From Bradyrhizobium ottawaense (GTDB lineage Bacteria > Pseudomonadota > Alphaproteobacteria > Rhizobiales > Xanthobacteraceae), in NCBI RefSeq assembly GCF_900099825.1, contig NZ_LT629693.1, forward strand, positions 3,235,001 through 3,299,000: 64,000 nt of DNA, read 5' to 3'. Positions within the stretch are counted from its first letter, which is position 1; each line of letters begins with the position of its first letter. The notes under the pieces are model-generated. The model had not been told where the DNA came from and did no database searches. It worked only from the letters and a program-made list of their open reading frames with translations. Position numbers and translations under genes: made by a program. Below are positions 50,155 through 60,176 of this stretch, one piece after another.

Positions 50155-50169
50155 TGGCACATCGCTTGC
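50155..50169 (+). promoter_or_regulatory. Sigma-54 promoter of the atzF-like gene
   Basis: TGGCAC-ATCGC-TTGC is an exact match to the sigma-54 -24/-12 core, with GG and GC at the required 10-base distance. The expected start point (near 50181) gives a leader of roughly 23 bases before the ATG at 50204. The region 49908-50154 upstream would hold activator sites; none is certain. Confidence 0.8.
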
Positions 50170-50203
50170 TTCGTTCGAGATGAATTAATCAGCCAACCCA
50201 AAG

Positions 50204-52012
50204 ATGGGGCATCCCTTGACCGAAACCGTTGCTGCGATCGTCGCCGCCCACCGCGCCGGCACCATGACGCCGGCGCAAACCGTGGCGCGCAGCTATCAGC
50301 GTATCCGCGACTACAATGATCCCGCCGTGTTCATCAGCCTGCGCGACGAGAAGGCGGCCATCGCGGAAGCCGAGGCGCTGAGCGCGAAAGACGGAGGTGC
50401 GCTGCCGCTGCTCGGCGTCCCCGTGGCGGTGAAGGACAATATCGACGCACTGGGCTTAGCGACGACAGCGGCGTGCCCGGCTTTTTCCTATTCGCCGGCG
50501 CAGGACTCGACGGCGGTGGCGAGATTGCGCGCCGCCGGCGCCATCATCATCGGCAAGACCAATCTCGATCAGTTCGCCACCGGCCTCGTCGGCGTCCGCT
50601 CGCCCTACGGCATTCCCGTCAATCCAATCCGCGCCGACCTGGTCCCGGGCGGATCGAGTTCGGGATCGGGCGTCGCCGTGTCGGCCGGACTGGTGCCGCT
50701 GGCGCTCGGCACCGACACCGCGGGAAGCGGCCGCGTGCCGGCGATGCTCAACAACATCGTCGGATTGAAACCGAGCCTTGGGCTGATCTCGACCGCGGGC
50801 CTGGTGCCGGCCTGCCGGACGCTCGATTGCATCTCGATATTCTCGCTCACCGTCGACGACGCGATGACTGCACTTGCCGCGATGGCCGGCCCTGACGGCG
50901 CCGATCCGTTTTCGCGCAGCCGGCCGCTAGGCGAGATCTCGGCGTTTCCCGGCCAGCTCCGGCTCGGTGTGCCGCGCAAGGGTCAACTGATCTTCTTCGG
51001 CGATACCGCGTCGGAGAAAGCCTATGGCGAGGCGCTCGAACGCTGGACCTCGCTCGGCGCCACGCTGGTCGAATTCGACCTCGAACCGTTCTACGAGACC
51101 GCGCGGCTGCTCTACGAGGGACCATGGGTCGCCGAACGCTATCTGGTGATCCGCAATCTGCTGGCGTCGTCGCCGGACTCGATCCATCCGGTGACGCGCG
51201 AGATCACGGCTGCGGGCGCACGCCTGACCGCCGCCGACACATTTTCCTCGCTCTATCGCCTGCAGGGACTGCGGCGCATTGCCGAGCGTACCTTCGCCAA
51301 TCTCGACGCCATCGTGCTGCCGACGGCGCCGACCGCCTACTCGACCGCGCAGGTGCTGGCCAATCCGATCGAGCTCAACAGCCGGCTCGGCACCTACACC
51401 AATTTCGTCAACCTGCTCGACCTCTGCGGCCTGGCCCTGCCGGCGGCGATGCGGCCCGACGGCATCCCCTTTGGCATCACGCTGCTGGCGCCGGCCGGGC
51501 ATGACGCGCAGCTCGCCAGCATCGGCCGCGCGTTCCACGCCGACACCAAACTGAAAATGGGCGCCAAGGGTTTGACGCAGCCGCCGCTGGCGGCGCCGTC
51601 GACCAGCCTGGTCGGCGACGAGATCGCCATCGCCGTAGTCGGCGCGCATCTCTCCGGCATGGCGCTCAACGGCGAACTGCAGGCGCTCAACGGCCGCCTG
51701 CTGGAAGCCGCCACGACCGCGCCGGACTACAAGCTCTACGCGCTCGACACCACGCCGCCGAAGCCCGGCATGCTGCGCGTCAATGCCGGAACCGGAACGG
51801 CGATCAAGCTCGAGCTGTGGGCGCTGTCGGCAGCGGCGTTCGGAAAATTCGTCGCCGCGATCCCGCCGCCGATGTCGATCGGCACCCTCCGTCTGGCCGA
51901 CGGCCGCGACGTGAAGGGTTTTATGGTCGAACCGATCGCCGCGGAAGGCGCGCGCGATATTTCCACGTTCGGCGGCTGGCGCGCCTTCGTGGCGGAGAAG
52001 GCGGCGGTTTAG
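50204..52012 (+). CDS. atzF: Allophanate hydrolase (AtzF type)
   Basis: 602 residues from ATG 50204; a TTG at 50216 with GGGG before it is a real alternative. The amidase-signature domain (about 1-440) has the Ser-cisSer-Lys triad at Lys77 (PVAVKDNID), Ser151 (PGGSSSGSG) and Ser175 (GTDTAGSGR); these agree with AtzF of Pseudomonas sp. ADP with a constant offset of 14 (recalled). The C-terminal domain (about 465-600: AVVGAHLSGMALNGELQALNGRLLE, YKLYALDTTPPKPGMLRV) is the decarboxylating half. It converts allophanate to two ammonia and two carbon dioxide. Its stop directly abuts the GntR stop on the other strand. Confidence 0.94.
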   Translation: MGHPLTETVAAIVAAHRAGTMTPAQTVARSYQRIRDYNDPAVFISLRDEKAAIAEAEALSAKDGGALPLLGVPVAVKDNIDALGLATTAACPAFSYSPAQDSTAVARLRAAGAIIIGKTNLDQFATGLVGVRSPYGIPVNPIRADLVPGGSSSGSGVAVSAGLVPLALGTDTAGSGRVPAMLNNIVGLKPSLGLISTAGLVPACRTLDCISIFSLTVDDAMTALAAMAGPDGADPFSRSRPLGEISAFPGQLRLGVPRKGQLIFFGDTASEKAYGEALERWTSLGATLVEFDLEPFYETARLLYEGPWVAERYLVIRNLLASSPDSIHPVTREITAAGARLTAADTFSSLYRLQGLRRIAERTFANLDAIVLPTAPTAYSTAQVLANPIELNSRLGTYTNFVNLLDLCGLALPAAMRPDGIPFGITLLAPAGHDAQLASIGRAFHADTKLKMGAKGLTQPPLAAPSTSLVGDEIAIAVVGAHLSGMALNGELQALNGRLLEAATTAPDYKLYALDTTPPKPGMLRVNAGTGTAIKLELWALSAAAFGKFVAAIPPPMSIGTLRLADGRDVKGFMVEPIAAEGARDISTFGGWRAFVAEKAAV

Positions 52013-52747
52013 CTACAACGACACCGCGTAAAGCTCGTACTCGCCGCGCACCAGTTCGATATGCGCGCGCATCGCGGCCGCGGCGCCGACCTTGTCGCCG
52101 CGCAGGATCGCGACCACGACGCGGTCGTGTTCGGCCTGCGATTTCGCCAGCCGGCCGAGATTGCGGAATTGGGCCCGGCGAAACGGCTGCACCCGCACCC
52201 GCGTCGCCAGCGTCATTTCGGCGATGTAGTCGTTCTGCGAACCGGCATAGATCGCGTTGTGAAAGCGCTCGTTGACTTCGTGAAAGCGCTCGGGATTGCC
52301 GGCATGGCTCAAGACCCGCAGCTCGTCGTGGATCGCCTCGAGTTTCTGGCGCTCCGCCGCCGTCATCCGTTCCGCGGCCAATCCCGCGCACAGGGCTTCC
52401 AGCTCCGCCATCGCCTCGAACATGCCGGTCAGGCGTTCGAGCGAAGGCTGCGCCACCACGGCGCCGCGATGCGCACGGGCCTCGACCAGGCCGCTCGCCA
52501 CCAGCTGACGCAGCGCCTCGCGCACCGGGGTGCGCGACACGCCGAAGCGGCGCGCGATATCGGTCTCGTCGAGCGCCGAGCCCGGCGCCAGCACGCCGCG
52601 CACGATCTCGTCGGCGAGTTGCAGCCGCAATTCCTCCGCGCGCGTCACCTTGTCCGGCAGCGACGATGCCCGGTCGACGCGCCGAACCGGCGTCTCGGGC
52701 TCGGTGCCGGACGGTGGAACGCGCGTCGGAAGATCATCCAGACTCAT
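52013..52747 (-). CDS. GntR-family regulator, FadR/FCD type
   Basis: 244 residues. N-terminal winged helix (about 37-100: LRLQLADEIVRGVLAPGSALDETDIARRFGVSRTPVREALRQLVASGLVEARAHRGAVV) and all-helical FCD domain (about 110-235) with metal-ligand candidates in FHEVNERFHNAIYAGS and SQAEHDRVVVAIL. Start is 2 bases from the atzH-like stop, so it is the last gene of the transport/amidase operon and probably senses its substrate. Confidence 0.93.
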   Translation of the reverse strand: MSLDDLPTRVPPSGTEPETPVRRVDRASSLPDKVTRAEELRLQLADEIVRGVLAPGSALDETDIARRFGVSRTPVREALRQLVASGLVEARAHRGAVVAQPSLERLTGMFEAMAELEALCAGLAAERMTAAERQKLEAIHDELRVLSHAGNPERFHEVNERFHNAIYAGSQNDYIAEMTLATRVRVQPFRRAQFRNLGRLAKSQAEHDRVVVAILRGDKVGAAAAMRAHIELVRGEYELYAVSL

Positions 52748-52749
52748 GT

Positions 52750-53139
52750 CTATGATCCCGGTTCGTTGATGATGCTGACATGCGCCGCGACGATTCTCCA
52801 GCCCTCCGGGAAACGCACCCAGGTCTGCATTTGCCGGCCGACCTTGCCGGCCAGCGAATCGCGATAGAACAATGTCGAGGCCACGGCGGAGTCGCGGCCA
52901 TAGGTGGAGATCACGGTCTTGTCGGTTTTGCGCATCAGCCCGACCGGCGAGCGCGCGGCGCGAAAACCGCGGATCGCCCCATAACCATAGAGATTTTCGG
53001 CAATGCCATAGCGCAGCGTGCGGGAATCGTCGCGGAACAATTCGTCGAGCACCGCGACGTCGTTCGATACCAGCGCCTTTTCATAGCGCTCGAATTGGGC
53101 GGTGACCTCGGCCAACACGTCGGGAAGATCGATATCCAT
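52750..53139 (-). CDS. atzH: AtzH-like protein (DUF3225, NTF2-like fold)
   Basis: 129 residues from ATG 53139. NTF2/SnoaL-type cone fold with [54 protein letters not shown] and [24 protein letters not shown], the AtzH family pattern. AtzH lies between atzG/atzE in many Proteobacteria and has been reported, as I recall, to handle the dicarboxyurea intermediate on the way to allophanate. Two bases from the AtzE-like stop. Confidence 0.88.
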
Positions 53140-53141
53140 CG

Positions 53142-54539
53142 CTAAATTCCCCTCGGCGCAGGTGCGGCAGCAACGCCCATTCTTTCCAATGCATGCGCGA
53201 CGCGCAGCGCGACATCTTCGCGCCACGGTGCGGCGATGATCTGGACCCCGATCGGCATCGGCTGCAGCGGCACCGGCACCGCTACCACCGGCAGACCGAT
53301 GAACGAAATCGGTTGGGTGTGGATGCCGATATTGGCCCGCACCGGCAGATCGACGCCGTCGAGATTGAACATCACCTGGCCGAGTTTCGGCGCAATGCAG
53401 GGCGTCGCGGGCGCGATAATCACGTCCACCGTCCTGAACAGCTCCAGTACCCGGGCGCGATACCAGCGGCGGAATTTCTGTGCGCGGTCGACGAGGGGCG
53501 CCGGCACCATGGCGCCGGCGATCAGGCGGTCGCGCACCGCGGGATCGAAATCGTTCGGCCGCTGGCGCAGGCGGTCGAGATGCAGGGACGCACCTTCCGT
53601 CGTGGAGATCACGTAAGCCGCGGCGCGGGCGCGGGCGGCCTCGGGAATTTCGACCGTGCTTGTGGCGTTCAGCGCTTTCGCCACGCGCGCCACGGCTTCC
53701 ACCGCCTCGGGGAAAACGTTGTTCTGGAAATAGCCGCCGGCGATCGCGACCCGCAATCCCGAGATATCCTGCGCCAGCAGCGGCGCCACCGGCTCGACCG
53801 GCCGCGTCGTGCAGGCGGCATCGTCGGCGTCCGGCCCCTGCATCGCGTCGTAGGCCAGCGCGAGATCGCCTGTGCTGCGCGCGAACGGGCCGAGGTGATC
53901 GAAGCTGGCGACGAACGGAAACGAGCGCGCGCGCGACAGCCGGCCATAGGTCGGCTTCAGGCCGAAGATGCCGCAGAACGAGGATGGCACCCGGATCGAG
54001 CCGTTGGTATCGGAGCCCAACGCAATCGGCACCAGTCCGCCGCCGACCGAACTGCCGGAGCCGCCGGAGGAGCCGCCGCTCATCCGGGTTGGATCGTGCG
54101 GATTGCGCGACGGACCGTCATGAATGTTTTCGCCGGTGAAGTCGTAGGCGTATTCGCCCATGTTGAGCGCGCCGACCAGCACCGCGCCCTGCGCCTCCAT
54201 TCGCTCAATCAGCGTGGCGTCGCGCGACGATGGCGCAAGATCACGATTGATCTTAGATCCGGCGCGGGTTGGAAGACCCTTCACATCGAACAGGTTCTTC
54301 ACCGCGAACGGCACGCCTGCGAGTGGGCCAACCTTTTGTCCGGCGGCGATCGCCGCATCGACCGCGCGAGCCTTGGCGCGAGCACGATCGGCGGTGACGT
54401 CGGTGAACGAATTCAGCACGCCGTCATGCCTGGCGATCCGCGCCAATGCGGCTTCGGTCGCTTCAAGCGCGGAAACTTTTCGGCCGGCCACCGCTTGCGC
54501 AATCGCCCCGGCTGACATCCCGTCGGTATTCACGGTCAT
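53142..54539 (-). CDS. atzE: AtzE-type amidase (1-carboxybiuret hydrolase large-subunit family)
   Basis: 465 residues from ATG 54539. Amidase-signature fold: catalytic Lys81 ([10 protein letters not shown]), cis-Ser in SGGSSGGSG (about 157-158) and nucleophile Ser181 in [45 protein letters not shown] and [10 protein letters not shown] are typical of AtzE. In cyanuric-acid degraders AtzE with AtzG deaminates 1-carboxybiuret; related pairs without that pathway have unproved roles. It follows AtzG by 7 bases, as in all known AtzEG operons. Confidence 0.92.
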
Positions 54540-54546
54540 GGCGCGG

Positions 54547-54729
54547 TCAGGCTGTATAGACACAGGCCGGCTCGGTTTCATCGGGCAACGCGAATTCATC
54601 GACCAGCCGCGCCAGCCTCAGCGATACTTCGAGATTTGCCCGCACGGCAGGTCGCCAGGCCTCTTCGACCGGCAGCGCCAGCGCCTTCGAAACGGCGTCG
54701 ATGTAGTCGTCCAGGTGGTCAGCAGCCAT
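54547..54729 (-). CDS. atzG: AtzG-like small subunit (DUF4089, GatC-like)
   Basis: 60 residues from ATG 54729 (GGGAG seven bases upstream; a TTG five codons earlier is less likely). Helical GatC-like sequence AADHLDDYIDAVSKALALPVEEAWRPAVRANLEVSLRLARLVDEFALPDETEPA; the VRANLEVSLRLA and DETEPA elements match DUF4089. In AtzEG the small subunit wraps around AtzE and stabilises it. Missed by standard length cut-offs. Confidence 0.9.
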   Translation of the reverse strand: MAADHLDDYIDAVSKALALPVEEAWRPAVRANLEVSLRLARLVDEFALPDETEPACVYTA

Positions 54730-54748
54730 TTCACTCCCAATCAACTTC

Positions 54749-56464
54749 TTAGTGCACCGGCAACGGCGGATGTGGGATCGCCGTCAGCAACTCCTTTGTA
54801 TAGGCATCCTGCGGATTACCCAAGACCTGGTCGGACGTTCCCTGCTCGACGATCCGTCCCGCCCGCATCACGATGACACGATCGCACAATAGACGGACCA
54901 CATTCAGATCGTGCGACACGAACAAATAGCTCATCCCCATCGAGGCCTTGAGGTCCTGCAGCAGGTTGAGCACCACGGCCTGCACGGAAACGTCGAGCGC
55001 CGCCGTCGGCTCGTCGAGGATCACGAGCTTGGGATGCAGCGCAATGGCGCGCGCGATGCCGACGCGGGCCTTCTGGCCGCCGGATAATTGATGCGGAAAG
55101 CGATCCAGCAGGTTGACCGGCAGGCCGACCAGGCCGGCGAGTTCCTCGCAGCGGGTCCGTAGCGCGTCGCCGCCCTTGATGTCGCCCATCTGCATGATCG
55201 GATCGGCGATGGCGCGGGCCGCGGTAAAGCGCGGGTTGAGGCTGTCGGTCGGATCCTGGAACACCATCTGGATGCTCTTGCGCAGCGGCGTCCGCGCAAA
55301 GCTGTTGGGAAGCATCCCGCCGATTTCGTCGCCGTCGAACAGGATGCGGCCCGAGGTCTGGTCCAGCAGCCGCATAACCATCATCGACGTCGTGGATTTG
55401 CCGCAGCCGGATTCGCCAACCAGCCCGACGCTCTCGCCATGGCCGACGGAAAAGCTGATGCCGTCGACCGCGCGAAACACTTCGGCTTCCACCGGAGGCC
55501 TGCGGCCGAACAGTTTGCCGAGCGTGGCGGTGGCGCCCTGGCGCGGATATTCCTTCACCAGCTTCTCGACCAGCAGCAACGGTTTGGCGGCGGCATCCGG
55601 CGTCGGTGCCGGCGCGAGCGTCGGCAGCGCCGCCGCCTCTTCCTCCGGCAGCAGATCGCGCAAGGAGACGCCGAGCCGCGGCGTCGCGCGCATCAGCTTC
55701 TTGGTATAGGCATGCGCCGGGTTGGCGAAGATGTCAGATGACTTCGCGGTCTCGACCACCCTTCCCTTCTCCATGACGATGACGCGGTCGCAATAGGCAG
55801 CGGCGAGGCCGAGATCGTGGGTGATCAGGATGGTCGACATGTTCCGCCGCTTGGTCAGCTCGACGATCAGGTCCATCACCGCCTTCTGCGTGGTGACGTC
55901 GAGGCCGGTGGTCGGCTCGTCCGCGATCAGGAGCTGCGGATTGCAGGCCAGCGCCAGCGCGATGACGACGCGCTGGCACATGCCGCCGGAGAGTTCGAAC
56001 GGATAGGCGTGGTAGCGCTCGCGCGGGCGCGCGATCTTGACCTGTTCCAGCGCCTCGATCGCCTTCTCGCCGCGGTCGGTCACCGTCGACTGCTGCACAT
56101 GCTGGCGCAGCACGTCCTCGATCTGGTCGCCGACTTTGCGGATCGGATTCAGCGCCGCGCGCGGATTCTGGAAGATCATCGAAATTTCGCGGCCGCGCAG
56201 GTCGCGCATCTGGTCTTCGGTCGCAGTCTTGACGTCGATGCCTGAAAATACCACCGAGCCCTCGGCGATCTTGCCGGCGCGGTCGAGAATGCGCATCACG
56301 GCGTAGGACGTCACCGATTTTCCGGAGCCGGATTCGCCGACGATGCCGAGCGTCTCGCCCTTGGAGACGGAGATATTGACGTGCTGCACGGCTTTGACGA
56401 TGCCGCGCCTGGTCGCGAATTCGACCGTGAGGTCGTTGACGTCGAGCAACGGCTGCGCGGTCAT
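54749..56464 (-). CDS. Fused dipeptide/oligopeptide-type ABC ATPase (DppD-DppF in one chain)
   Basis: 571 residues with two nucleotide-binding domains. First: Walker A GESGSGKS (about 36-43), signature LSGGMCQRVVIAL, Walker B LLIADEPTTGLD; second: GESGCGKS (about 349), LSGGQKARVGIAR, LVILDEPTAALDVS. Each has a C-terminal peptide-type extension (AYTKKLMRATPRLG; AYTKELLTAIPHP). The first signature has MC in place of the usual MR/QQ, not otherwise unusual. Energises uptake by the permease pair and binding protein upstream. Start overlaps the stop of a 34-codon ORF (ATGA). Confidence 0.95.
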   Translation of the reverse strand: MTAQPLLDVNDLTVEFATRRGIVKAVQHVNISVSKGETLGIVGESGSGKSVTSYAVMRILDRAGKIAEGSVVFSGIDVKTATEDQMRDLRGREISMIFQNPRAALNPIRKVGDQIEDVLRQHVQQSTVTDRGEKAIEALEQVKIARPRERYHAYPFELSGGMCQRVVIALALACNPQLLIADEPTTGLDVTTQKAVMDLIVELTKRRNMSTILITHDLGLAAAYCDRVIVMEKGRVVETAKSSDIFANPAHAYTKKLMRATPRLGVSLRDLLPEEEAAALPTLAPAPTPDAAAKPLLLVEKLVKEYPRQGATATLGKLFGRRPPVEAEVFRAVDGISFSVGHGESVGLVGESGCGKSTTSMMVMRLLDQTSGRILFDGDEIGGMLPNSFARTPLRKSIQMVFQDPTDSLNPRFTAARAIADPIMQMGDIKGGDALRTRCEELAGLVGLPVNLLDRFPHQLSGGQKARVGIARAIALHPKLVILDEPTAALDVSVQAVVLNLLQDLKASMGMSYLFVSHDLNVVRLLCDRVIVMRAGRIVEQGTSDQVLGNPQDAYTKELLTAIPHPPLPVH

Positions 56465-56565
56465 GACGAAATCCTCCGCCCAACCAGCCCGTCATCCAAA
56501 AAACCGCAAAACAACCCCATGCAAAGTAGACCCGAGGTAAAATAACACCATATCTGGGCTGTCAT
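56461..56565 (-). CDS. Possible 34-residue membrane peptide between permease and ATPase genes
   Basis: A 34-codon frame whose ATG overlaps the permease stop (TGATG at 56567-56563) and whose TGA overlaps the ATPase start (ATGA at 56464-56461). Translation: MTAQIWCYFTSGLLCMGLFC then GFLDDGLVGRRISS. Residues about 5-23 are hydrophobic enough for one membrane helix, followed by a charged tail. Perfect coupling on both sides suggests a real small protein or a coupling leader; without homologues it remains a candidate. Confidence 0.5.
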   Translation of the reverse strand: MTAQIWCYFTSGLLCMGLFCGFLDDGLVGRRISS

Positions 56566-57464
56566 CAGGTCCTCCGCTGCGGATCGACGATGTCGCGCAG
56601 TCCGTCGCCAAGCAGATTGAAGCAAAACACCGCAATCATCAGCGCCAGGCCCGGGAATAACGCGATCCACCATTCACCCGACACCATGAAGCCGGCGCCT
56701 TCCGCGACCATGATGCCCCATTCCGCGGTCGGCGGCCGGACGCCGAGGCCGATGAACGACAGACCGGCGGCATTGAGGATCGCATAGCCCATGGTCAGTG
56801 ACATCTGCACGATCATGATCGGCATGATGTTGGGCAGGATGTGGACCAGCAGAATCCGGAACTCGCCATTGCCGGACAGCCGCGCCGCCTGCACGAAGCC
56901 GGCGTTGCGCCGGACATTGGCCTCGGCGCGGGCGACGCGGGCATAGAGCGGAAAGTTGACGATCGCGGTCGCGATGATGATGTTCTGCACGGTGTTGCCG
57001 AGGGCTGCGACGATGCCCATCGCCAGCACGAACAGCGGAAACGCCATGATGGTGTCGGCGATCCGGCCGACAATGCGATCGGTCCAGCCGCCGAAATAGC
57101 CGGCGGCGATGCCGGCAAGGCCGCCCATCAGGAACACCAGCACCACCGACGCCACCGCGATGAAGGTATCGAGCCTGGTCGCAACGATGACGCGGCTGAA
57201 GATATCGCGGCCCAACTGATCGGTGCCGAACCAGTGCGCCGCCGACGGCGGCTTCAGCGCCGCCACGGTGTCGCTGGCGAGCGGATCGTAGAGCACCACC
57301 CAAGGGCCGAAGATCGCCGCAAACAGAATCACGACCAACAGTCCGAATGCAAAGCCTGTGACCTTGTTCTCCCCGAGCACATAGCGGGTGTGTTCGAAGA
57401 CCGCCAAAAATCCCGACGTACGCGCGGGACCGGCGGGTTCAACGGCAGGCGCAACGGTGCTCAT
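56565..57464 (-). CDS. Peptide-type ABC permease, DppC-like
   Basis: 299 residues, about six helices. N-terminal KVTGFAFGLLVVILFAAIFGPW, the OppC-type periplasmic region HWFGTDQLGRDIFSRVIVATR, and the EAA motif PLYARVARAEANVRRNAGFVQAARLSGNGEFRILLVHILPNIMP. Its stop overlaps the start of the 34-codon ORF. Partner of the DppB-like permease 9 bases upstream. Confidence 0.95.
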   Translation of the reverse strand: MSTVAPAVEPAGPARTSGFLAVFEHTRYVLGENKVTGFAFGLLVVILFAAIFGPWVVLYDPLASDTVAALKPPSAAHWFGTDQLGRDIFSRVIVATRLDTFIAVASVVLVFLMGGLAGIAAGYFGGWTDRIVGRIADTIMAFPLFVLAMGIVAALGNTVQNIIIATAIVNFPLYARVARAEANVRRNAGFVQAARLSGNGEFRILLVHILPNIMPIMIVQMSLTMGYAILNAAGLSFIGLGVRPPTAEWGIMVAEGAGFMVSGEWWIALFPGLALMIAVFCFNLLGDGLRDIVDPQRRT

Positions 57465-57473
57465 GCTTACCCC

Positions 57474-58487
57474 TTACCCTTCAAGACGAACCCTGGGATC
57501 GATGACGCCATAGAGAATGTCGATGATCAGATTGAGCAGCACGTACATGACCGCCATGGTCAGCACGAAACCCTGCACCGGCGCGAAGTCCGACGAGATC
57601 AGCGCTTCGACCGCGTAGGAGCCGATCCCGGGCCAGGCGAACACCTTCTCCACCAGCACGTTGGCGCCGAGCAGGAACGAGAACACCATGCTGAGCGTGG
57701 TGATGACCGGCAGCATGGCATTGCGAAACGCGTAGGTGACGATCACGGTCGCCGGCGACAGCCCGCTGGCGCGCGCGGTGCGGACGAAGTCGGACGCCAG
57801 CACCGCCAGCATCGAGGCCCGCGTCATGCGTGCGATCGGCGCCAGCGAGAAGATCGCCAGCGTCATCGCCGGCAGGATCAACTGACTGAGCGCGGAGCGG
57901 AAGGTTTCGAAATCGCGCGCGATCAGGGCATCGATCAGATAGAAGCCGGTAACGGCGTTCGGCGCGCTGTAGAACACGTCGAGCCGCCCGAGCGGCGCCG
58001 GCGACCATCCGAGCCTGAAATAGAACACATAGACCAGCACCAAACCCGTAAAGAACACCGGCAGCGACACGCCGGCCGTCGTCGTGATCCGGCAGAGATG
58101 GTCGATCCACGACCCGGGCCGGTTGGCGGCCAGCACGCCAAGTGGGATCGCGATCGCGATCGAAACGATCAGGCCTAGCAGCGTCAGCTCCGCCGACGCC
58201 GGCAGCCGGTTTTTGATTTCGGTCGCGACCGGCTGGCCAGTGGTCAGCGAATTGCCGAAATCGCCATGCGCGAGATCGTTGGTGTAACGGAAGAACTGTT
58301 CGATCAGCGGCTTGTCGAGGCCGAGCTTCTTGCGGATCTGCTCGACCGCTTCCTTGCCCGCCGCTGGACCCGCGAAATACGCCGCGGGGTCGCCCGGCAA
58401 CGCGCGCGTCAGCAGAAAGGTCACGATCACGACCCCGATCAGCGACGGGATCGCAAATAGCAGCCGCTTGCCGATCATGGTCAGCAT
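57474..58487 (-). CDS. Peptide-type ABC permease, DppB-like
   Basis: 337 residues, about six helices. First helix KRLLFAIPSLIGVVIVTFLLTRALPGDPA; EAA-type motif MTRASMLAVLASDFVRTARASGLSPATVIVTYAFRNAMLPVITTL. Six bases after the binding-protein stop. With the DppC-like protein it forms the inner-membrane path for the imported compound. Confidence 0.95.
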   Translation of the reverse strand: MLTMIGKRLLFAIPSLIGVVIVTFLLTRALPGDPAAYFAGPAAGKEAVEQIRKKLGLDKPLIEQFFRYTNDLAHGDFGNSLTTGQPVATEIKNRLPASAELTLLGLIVSIAIAIPLGVLAANRPGSWIDHLCRITTTAGVSLPVFFTGLVLVYVFYFRLGWSPAPLGRLDVFYSAPNAVTGFYLIDALIARDFETFRSALSQLILPAMTLAIFSLAPIARMTRASMLAVLASDFVRTARASGLSPATVIVTYAFRNAMLPVITTLSMVFSFLLGANVLVEKVFAWPGIGSYAVEALISSDFAPVQGFVLTMAVMYVLLNLIIDILYGVIDPRVRLEG

Positions 58488-58493
58488 GGCGGA

Positions 58494-60116
58494 TTATCCC
58501 TTCGCCAGCGCGCGGTAATCGAGGCGGCGGTGGAACCAGTATTGATAGCCGGTGATGTTCTTCTGCATCGCGACGTTGACGAAGGGCTGATACAGCGGAA
58601 TCCGCGGGATGTCGGTGAAGGCGAGATCGACCATGCCTTTGACGTCGGTGTCGTAGGTCGCCTTGTCGCCGGCCGCGGCGGCCGTGCGCGCGCCGTCGAT
58701 CAGTCTGTCCATCTCCGGCGACTTGTAGCTCATGGTGTTGAAGACGGAATTGTTGCCGTGATAGCACCAGTAGAAGAAGTATTCGGGGTAATCGAGCCAG
58801 CCCGAGAACACGTTGGTGTAGAGCGGCATTTCCTTCTTGTTCAGCTCGGTGCGCCAGTTGGCGCCGGGCACCTTGTTGATCGTGGTCTTGATGCCGATCT
58901 GGGCGAGGCTCTCCTGCACCAGCACGCAAAGCGGCTCGTTGATCCCGGCGAAGTTGAGGTCGAACGAGATCGTGGTCTCGAAGCCGTCGGGATAGCCGGC
59001 CTCGGTCAGCAAGGCCTTCGCCTTCGCCATGTCGGTGAAATACTTGGTCGGCTGCGGCCACGCCACCTCGGTGGCCTTGCTGGCCGGCGCGCCGAACATC
59101 GGATTGGCGAGGCCGAACAGCACTACATCCATGATCTTCTGGTACGGCACCGCGTAAGCTATCGCCTCGCGCACCTTCGGATTGTTGAACGGCGGCTTGG
59201 TGACGTTCATGCCGAGATACTGGATGCCGTTGGAGAACGGCAGCGACACGATGTTGAGCTTGCCGGCCGCTTTCAGTTCCTGGAAATCCTTGTTCGGCAA
59301 TTCATAGGAGATGTCGGCGTCGCCGCGCTCCAGCAGCGCCCGGCGGTTGCCGGCCTGCGGCACCATGCGCCAGATCACGCGCTTGATCTTCGGCAAGGGA
59401 CCGCCGACCCACTCGTCGTTGCGCTCCATGATGACTTCGGTGCCCGCGGTCCACTTCGTCACCTTGTAGGCGCCGGAACCCGCGGTCTGCTGTTTTGTAA
59501 ACTCGAGTCCCCAGGGGTCCTTCTCGGACGCGTTCTTCTTCACCAGCTCGGAATTGACGATGCAGGGCACGATGACGGCGAGATCGGGAATCGTCAGTTT
59601 GTCTTTCCTGGCAAAGTCGACACGGATCGTGTTGTCGTCGACGACGACGAACTGTTCGGCCTTGGTCAGCGAGCCCGCGCTCATCTGGAAGGTCGGGAAG
59701 CCACCGACGCTGACGGCGCGATCCAGCGACCACTTGGCGTCCTTGGCCGTTACCGGCGTGCCGTCGTGGAATTTCGCGTTCTTCTTCAGCTTGAAGGTCA
59801 CCGACATGTCGCCGATGTTCATGTCCTCGGCGAGCTCGGGCTTGAACTTGTCGCGGTCGTAATACGGGACGCCGCCGGGACCTTCCTTCATCTCGTGGCT
59901 GATCAGGCGGTCGTAGCAATTCCACGACACTTCATAGCCGGGCACGTTGGTGCCGACGCCGTGGATGTCGAGATTGTTGGGGCCGCCTTCCGAAACGATC
60001 AGCAGCGTCTCCGACCGGGCGTCGGCCTTGGCCGCAGACCAGATCGCCGGCGCCGACGTGAGCGCGCTGGTCGCAGCCAATCCGGACACGGATTTGAGGA
60101 AATCGCGACGCTTCAT
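58494..60116 (-). CDS. Peptide-type (SBP_bac_5) binding protein with Tat signal
   Basis: 540 residues from ATG 60116 (GGAG seven bases upstream). A twin-arginine-type leader MKRRDFLKSVSGLAATSALTS precedes the mature protein. Family 5 binding fold: ELAEDMNIGDMSVTFKLKKNAKFHDGTPVTAKDAKWSLDRAV and SNGIQYLGMNVTKPPFNNPKVREAIAYAVPY. First gene of the sigma-54 operon; its ligand is presumably what AtzGE hydrolyses after uptake. Confidence 0.94.
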   Translation of the reverse strand: MKRRDFLKSVSGLAATSALTSAPAIWSAAKADARSETLLIVSEGGPNNLDIHGVGTNVPGYEVSWNCYDRLISHEMKEGPGGVPYYDRDKFKPELAEDMNIGDMSVTFKLKKNAKFHDGTPVTAKDAKWSLDRAVSVGGFPTFQMSAGSLTKAEQFVVVDDNTIRVDFARKDKLTIPDLAVIVPCIVNSELVKKNASEKDPWGLEFTKQQTAGSGAYKVTKWTAGTEVIMERNDEWVGGPLPKIKRVIWRMVPQAGNRRALLERGDADISYELPNKDFQELKAAGKLNIVSLPFSNGIQYLGMNVTKPPFNNPKVREAIAYAVPYQKIMDVVLFGLANPMFGAPASKATEVAWPQPTKYFTDMAKAKALLTEAGYPDGFETTISFDLNFAGINEPLCVLVQESLAQIGIKTTINKVPGANWRTELNKKEMPLYTNVFSGWLDYPEYFFYWCYHGNNSVFNTMSYKSPEMDRLIDGARTAAAAGDKATYDTDVKGMVDLAFTDIPRIPLYQPFVNVAMQKNITGYQYWFHRRLDYRALAKG

Positions 60117-60161
60117 GGGATGCTCCAACGCCTGAGGGACAACGGCTTTGGAGCTGGAATC

Positions 60162-60176
60162 GCAAGGTTCGTGCCA
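60162..60176 (-). promoter_or_regulatory. Sigma-54 promoter of the transport/atzGEH operon
   Basis: On the minus strand TGGCAC-GAACC-TTGC, an exact -24/-12 core. The predicted start near 60150 gives a leader of about 34 bases before the binding-protein ATG. The 180 bases upstream to 60357 contain two TTAAGG-type direct repeats but no certain NtrC site. Confidence 0.8.

Follow-up and report, generated by a model that had tools for sequence, protein, structure and literature searches.

In the atzDGEHF operon of Pseudomonas sp. ADP, AtzG, AtzE, AtzH and AtzF form the lower half of a cyanuric acid pathway headed by the hydrolase AtzD, with AtzF encoded last and a BMP-type transporter nearby. What we take to be homologues of AtzG, AtzE and AtzH (HpxX, HpxY and HpxZ) recur in the hpxWXYZ oxalurate cluster, which presumably has the gamma-glutamyltransferase-like HpxW where the locus described below has AtzF. 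In Herbaspirillum, triuret is degraded by TrtA, TrtB, BiuH and AtzF (PMC7948467), and the passages of that paper on these enzymes describe conversion of triuret to 1-carboxybiuret by TrtA and its decarboxylation to biuret, and name AtzEG as 1-carboxybiuret hydrolase. AtzGEH clusters with an allophanate hydrolase and ATP-binding cassette (ABC) transporters, rarely with AtzD, were reported in PLoS One in 2018 (PMC6219798), where the passages on Betaproteobacteria, in which AtzD is usually absent, name neither TrtA, sigma-54 nor a substrate. Here we describe a cluster with this same gene set in a 64 kb stretch of Bradyrhizobium ottawaense DNA (contig NZ_LT629693.1, positions 3,235,001 to 3,299,000; the window), in which AtzG, AtzE, AtzH and AtzF are encoded together with an Opp/Dpp-type importer. 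Triuret is a small urea-like molecule that arises from oxidised uric acid and is present in fertiliser, and on balance we favour the reading that this cluster provides the importer and the lower half of a biuret-free route for scavenging triuret nitrogen under nitrogen limitation, and does not serve herbicide residue.

The AtzGEH-AtzF cluster and its importer

Proteins of the window were scored with NCBIfam and Pfam models at their curated cut-offs. The matches place on the minus strand, in order, a family-5 solute-binding protein (SBP; SBP_bac_5, 58494-60116), importer permeases B (57474-58487) and C (56565-57464), both with BPD_transp_1 domains, a double ATPase (54749-56464) made of ABC ATPases with oligo_HPY, AtzG (54547-54729), AtzE (53142-54539), AtzH/HpxZ (52750-53139) and, as the operon's last gene, a GntR/FCD regulator (52013-52747); AtzF (50204-52012) is convergent on the plus strand and its stop codon adjoins that of GntR. 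This gene set, with its order, its strands and AtzF on the facing strand, is as an earlier sequence-only reading had claimed. Its gaps of 2-19 bases hold for all but one of the intergenic distances, which run 6, 9, 100, 19, 7, 2 and 2 bases from SBP to GntR, the 100 bases lying between permease C and the ATPase.

AtzF has an amidase and a C-terminal domain (TIGR02713, 797 bits against a cut-off of 511), and in an alignment it conserves the Ser189 nucleophile of its Pseudomonas ADP counterpart. AtzE is an amidase-signature subunit (TIGR02715, 745 bits; cut-off 426), identical at 238 of 457 residues to the Pseudomonas ADP enzyme, and AtzG is its GatC-like partner (PF13318, 61 bits; cut-off 24), for which NCBIfam models gave no match at E <= 0.001. 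By family model and partner gene the pair is assigned to the 1-carboxybiuret hydrolase type. AtzH belongs to an NTF2-fold decarboxylase family (NF033625, 198 bits, cut-off 135; PF11533) and conserves by alignment both residues reported to be catalytic, Tyr22 and Arg46 (19 and 43 in native numbering, the offset being our own reading). The locus therefore shares AtzG, AtzE, AtzH and AtzF with the Pseudomonas sp. ADP operon, with the catalytic AtzH and AtzF residues conserved, but it has no AtzD, carries an Opp-type in place of a BMP-type transporter and sigma-54 sites, and encodes AtzF convergently. Likewise, it shares a family-5 SBP, two permeases and two ATPase domains with Opp/Dpp-type peptide importers, whereas here the ATPases are fused, the genes are set among those of ureide catabolism, and the SBP is at most 27% identical to solved binding proteins. 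The MKRRDFLK start of the SBP is presumably a twin-arginine-like signal.

Triuret hydrolase in this genome and in related gene rows

Two members of the biuret/triuret hydrolase family are encoded in the genome, and we distinguished them using the six residues that separate TrtA from BiuH in the published passages on triuret hydrolase (PMC7948467). One, at 1,564,041-1,564,754, has all six TrtA residues (F35, N41, A134, E160, Y187 and I205), keeps the catalytic triad and has an 11/11 sigma-54 site upstream; the second enzyme, encoded at 1,577,516, matches BiuH at all six and belongs to a BMP-type ABC operon. TrtA and AtzF are thus held in common with Herbaspirillum, with BiuH encoded elsewhere in the B. 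ottawaense genome, but here AtzGE would deaminate 1-carboxybiuret and AtzH would carry out a decarboxylation, whereas Herbaspirillum decarboxylates 1-carboxybiuret to biuret.

In some relatives, TrtA stands in the same gene row as the cluster. In two Bradyrhizobium genomes (G015, L286; G101, L288) TrtA, a membrane protein and AtzF face GntR-AtzH-AtzE-AtzG-ATPase-permeases-SBP, and in a third (G048, L287) TrtA adjoins AtzF. Beyond the genus, Terrarubrum has importer-TrtA-membrane protein-AtzF-AtzG-AtzE-AtzH in a single row, a contig of a metagenome-assembled genome (MAG; L195) has AtzF-AtzG-AtzE-AtzH-TrtA-SBP-PermB-PermC-ABC, also in one row, and Bosea and related loci (L182-L187) have importer-AtzH-GntR with AtzF and TrtA further out. 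Because these rows hold TrtA, and TrtA yields 1-carboxybiuret, the substrate of AtzGE, the pathway substrate, which the sequence-only reading had left unnamed, can be narrowed by context to triuret via 1-carboxybiuret.

Under nitrogen limitation, sigma-54 polymerase would transcribe the importer-AtzGEH-GntR operon, AtzF and the distant trtA, and the family-5 SBP and ABC importer would take up triuret or a very similar oligo-ureide. TrtA, assigned here by its diagnostic residues, would remove one ammonia in its published reaction to give 1-carboxybiuret; AtzGE would then release another ammonia, leaving 1,3-dicarboxyurea, AtzH would decarboxylate this to allophanate and AtzF would free the last two ammonia, as published for homologues of all three. 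Such a route would bypass biuret, the intermediate of the published Herbaspirillum triuret pathway. That the enzyme half serves triuret-derived 1-carboxybiuret we regard as likely. Apart from AtzF, no allophanate hydrolase in the genome exceeds the cut-off, and the genome also has one full urea-carboxylase-family gene. The place of AtzF as the finishing enzyme of the pathway, proposed in the sequence-only reading, is not exclusive, as AtzF would be predicted to serve the urea-carboxylase-family enzyme and biuret hydrolase as well.

Using the SBP as anchor we surveyed named genomes, taking the best 80 of 444 relatives, with counts limited to the fetched flanks. Importer genes were present at 51 of the 80 loci (21 of these 51 are cut by contig ends), and among these 51 AtzE, AtzF or AtzH was found at 43, TrtA at 18 (nine of them no more than 300 bp from importer genes) and BiuH at seven. 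The 25 isochorismatase-like genes of the survey were divided by their residues into 18 TrtA, one of them at 5/6, and seven BiuH. The remaining 29 loci had an SBP without importer genes; Atz genes occur at five of these loci and an orphan paralogue at 23. Two isochorismatase-like hydrolases within the importer operon of a Salipiger profundus plasmid (L133:2136-3511) were considered as TrtA or BiuH and rejected, as neither residue set fits; they also lack the key glutamine, and perhaps have another ureide specificity such as guanylurea.

Co-occurrence follows the same lines. Among 146 genomes of the genus, AtzE exceeds the cut-off in 143 and TrtA is present in 138; none has TrtA without AtzE and three lack both (Fisher P 1e-4, relatedness ignored). 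In a phylum sample of 397 genomes, using a TrtA-type cut set at 240 bits without checking residues one by one, TrtA-type enzymes occurred in 39, AtzH/HpxZ over cut-off in 46 and both in 29. Outside the genus these numbers were 18 with both, 17 with AtzH only and 10 with TrtA only (Fisher P 1e-14, relatedness ignored), and by our own reading of coordinates the two genes lie within 10 kb in 10 of the 18 non-genus genomes with both. In two stretches (L117 in G407; L114 in G311) TrtA adjoins AtzH and no AtzE was found, which suggests that AtzH-like proteins may also decarboxylate 1-carboxybiuret. Seven further AtzH stretches (L089, L091, L092/L122, L096, L109, L113 and L134) carry a different amidase, PRK08310-like in L134, and six of the seven lack AtzE; in L092/L122 this amidase is also beside a gene for AllG (oxamate carbamoyltransferase), AtzF and an importer.

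The membrane protein that adjoins TrtA is a hydrophobic protein of 530 amino acids, encoded at 1,562,344-1,563,990 in this genome (L144:9345-10991) and also at L129:5325-6926 and L182:19669-21279, and it is annotated as 'regulator' in two annotated plasmids. It had no match in Pfam up to E = 1, in NCBIfam up to 1e-5 or among PDB sequences up to E = 10, and AlphaFold modelled it poorly (mean predicted local distance difference test score, pLDDT, of 36 over four sequences). As it matches no family or PDB entry, calling it a permease is a guess from its hydrophobic segments, and it is a candidate for a new permease family for triuret.

Conservation in Bradyrhizobium and sigma-54-type sites

We chose 25 genus neighbourhoods by hand and set one aside (L047), since its AtzE is a second copy and the cluster is missing there. 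In the remaining 24, the ATPase, both permeases, AtzG, AtzE, AtzH and GntR were all present and the enzyme-importer order was kept throughout. The SBP was found in 23, L037 being the exception, and AtzF in 23 at the same place, with L100 cut off by a contig end. The permease gene in L041 and the ATPase gene in L120 each match in two pieces, as possible frameshifts or split genes. The copy set aside, from G015, is a second, diverged AtzG-AtzE pair (52% and 70%) in a stretch without importer, AtzH or AtzF.

An AtzE tree was built from 73 sequences, omitting 15 close genus loci. In it the window AtzE groups with genus and family members, and the sister group of this clade (99/95) is formed by AtzE from L192, L194 and L195, loci that all carry the importer, AtzF and TrtA. 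AtzE from eight loci linked to gamma-glutamyltransferase (GGT; oxalurate-type) forms a separate clade with 100/100 support, while the ninth GGT-labelled sequence, from Acidithiobacillus (L131) and on a long branch, is placed elsewhere, and AtzD-linked AtzE is scattered over the tree. Context labels cluster on the tree above shuffles, yet many changes are needed, 11 for the importer and eight for TrtA, and gene context has therefore been reshuffled repeatedly. A neighbourhood survey of AtzE homologues, proposed as a check by the sequence-only reading, covered 87 AtzE genes and did find importer linkage beyond the genus, with an AtzD-like neighbour at five and GGT at nine.

Both outer genes of the cluster are preceded by a sigma-54-type -24/-12 site. 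The site before AtzF (50155..50170, plus strand) matches at 11 of 11 positions and ends 33 bp before the AtzF start, and that before the SBP (60161..60176, minus strand) matches at 10 of 11 and ends 44 bp before the SBP start. These are the window's only two exact occurrences of TGGCAC-N5-TTGC, against 0.13 expected in 64 kb, with two reached in one of 100 shuffles, and they also bounded the region picked out by the sequence-only reading. In 28 genus sequences (472,638 bases, window included, with G015 counted both as L046 and as L286) we found 53 exact sites in total, and counting per gene, with sites before 27 of 27 SBP, 23 of 27 AtzF and 3 of 3 TrtA genes, also sums to 53. The four sequences with no site before AtzF (L046, L286, L287 and L288) are those with TrtA upstream of AtzF, and three of them include TrtA, each time with a site before it. 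Furthermore, the same site precedes TrtA in all six separate genus TrtA loci, that of this genome included. For comparison, 51 of 3000 random 300-bp stretches of genus loci score at least 10/11, true sites included, and a 10/11 match near the BMP-BiuH operon of this genome falls inside the listed first reading frame (L145:5236-5251).

The -24/-12 elements are conserved before the cluster genes, which predicts membership of a sigma-54 regulon. Passages of a study of Bradyrhizobium sp. DOA9 (PMC13207237) report atzE and several dpp/opp genes as lowered in rpoN mutants, and these correspond to the window genes by name only. The sigma-54 control put forward in the sequence-only reading is supported as to the sites, both of which are real, exceed expectation, are conserved in the genus and are predicted promoters, and the nitrogen-scavenging role is supported as well.

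A 34-codon open reading frame (ORF; 56461-56565, minus strand) in the 100-base gap between permease C and the ATPase had also been listed as an operon member. The ORF exists, but it was matched in two of 25 genus loci (tblastn at E <= 1e-3, which is stringent for a query this short), the gap is 0 to 364 bp in relatives without any common ORF, and the ORF overlies a 14-base motif, GCATGGGGTTGTTT (56509-56522), of which the genome has 32 exact copies, against none for the reversed control. Because of this poor conservation, variable gap and dispersed motif it is very likely not a gene, and the same points rule it out as a small membrane protein. The motif is also in 18 of 27 genus loci and is possibly part of a larger repeat.

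Importer ligand and competing routes

Several observations weigh against triuret scavenging as the role of the cluster. In this genome TrtA is 1.7 Mb from it. AtzE occurs without TrtA in five of the 146 genus genomes, of which three exceed 90% completeness and two are at 75 and 81%. In the SBP survey, the fetched flanks lack TrtA at 33 of the 51 importer loci, contig ends truncating 21 of the 51, and eight loci show no AtzE, AtzF or AtzH, of which two have TrtA and two are on short contigs. In loci outside the genus set, among them a Bradyrhizobium SBP paralogue, the exact sigma-54 site precedes only 20 of 90 SBP and 8 of 59 AtzF genes. Guanylurea hydrolase is of the same protein family as TrtA, according to the passages on it (PMC9800807), and the residue comparison covered TrtA and BiuH. 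In addition, the passages on the triuret pathway (PMC7948467) give 1-carboxybiuret a spontaneous decay to biuret with a half-life of about 20 min. Finally, the Opp-type importer may carry something else, since a candidate permease is encoded next to TrtA, and BiuH sits in a BMP-type ABC operon.

The last point bears on the claim that linkage of importer and amidase defines the substrate. The linkage holds in all 24 genus loci and recurs in other families, but it does not alone define the importer ligand, because the genome also has the TrtA-linked membrane protein and the BMP-type ABC operon with BiuH. The SBP itself was modelled well (mean pLDDT 89), and its fold matches are binders of peptides, opines, glutathione, sialic acid and nickel at no more than 27% identity, so that the fold search pointed to the general family and gave no ligand clue. 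An orphan paralogue of the SBP, 54-57% identical and with no importer genes in the stretch, occurs at 23 loci (L197-L216, L219, L230 and L235) in Bradyrhizobium and related MAGs, with an exact sigma-54 site 40-61 bp upstream in eight; in L200 it is beside an amidohydrolase and a TetR gene.

It is conceivable, if unlikely, that the same enzymes act on TrtA-derived 1-carboxybiuret while the importer carries another ureide, amide or peptide that feeds AtzF or the nitrogen supply generally. The two other candidate transport routes and the mixed ligands among the fold matches are what this would lead one to expect, as are four importer loci (L217, L242, L248 and L256) with neither Atz genes nor TrtA; four neighbour genes scanned in L248 and L256 (histidine kinase, channel, molybdopterin oxidoreductase and GGDEF/EAL) gave no ligand clue. 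However, at the nine loci where TrtA lies within 300 bp of importer genes, eight lack the TrtA-linked candidate permease in the stretch, and we put triuret as the importer ligand at about an even chance. Alternatively, AtzF could be the genome's all-purpose allophanate hydrolase, working mainly with the urea-carboxylase-family enzyme, and its place facing the operon would then mean little functionally. A single AtzF over the cut-off and one full urea-carboxylase-family gene in the genome agree with this, but the recurrence of that place in 23 of 24 genus loci and, in other families, of AtzF in a row shared with TrtA or AtzGEH makes it improbable.

A cyanuric acid pathway, in which neighbouring organisms or a hydrolase gene elsewhere would account for ring opening, draws on two facts: the Pseudomonas ADP operon has AtzGEHF as its lower half, and an AtzD-family gene is present in 89 of 146 genus genomes. 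The same PF09663 search, which works in that it matched those 89 genomes, although it matched none of its 14 control genomes, gave no match in the whole B. ottawaense genome, in agreement with the sequence-only statement that cyanuric acid hydrolase is absent; moreover, AtzE and TrtA are both present in 49 of the 57 genus genomes that lack AtzD, and among 87 surveyed AtzE genes five have an AtzD-like neighbour. We rate this pathway as very improbable. The slimmest chance is given to an Hpx-type oxalurate route, with AtzGE acting on oxalurate and AtzH on N-carboxyoxamate. NCBIfam does name AtzH as HpxZ, and related trios stand with GGT at nine of 87 AtzE loci and, in passages of PMC6219798, in enteric bacteria, but the 25 genus loci tested have no GGT up to 9 kb from AtzE (the window itself being outside that set), and the window AtzE, in contrast to oxalurate-type AtzE, is outside the GGT-linked clade. 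We also presume that AtzF has no place in an oxalurate route.

Each enzyme, the TrtA pathway via biuret and AtzGEH-AtzF-ABC clusters are already known, and their combination was not met in the literature searched. Full-text searches, covering titles, abstracts and passages, found no paper linking triuret to Bradyrhizobium or to an AtzGEH-importer cluster; passages of a 2025 nitrifier study (PMC12625717) cover TrtA, BiuH and AtzF with BMP-type transporters. The passages of PMC6219798 left open the substrate of AtzD-less AtzGEH clusters, and here linkage, TrtA residues and sigma-54 sites together yield a testable prediction, triuret via 1-carboxybiuret, which would also supply a candidate ligand for the Opp-type importer in a large group. 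We tentatively suggest, at slightly under even confidence, that a genus-wide, nitrogen-controlled and biuret-free triuret system is what AtzGEH naturally serves where an organism has no cyanuric acid hydrolase. If so, triuret would be a regular nitrogen source for these soil bacteria, one that plant-associated bacteria routinely meet, and the cyanuric acid operon would have borrowed its lower half from the triuret system.

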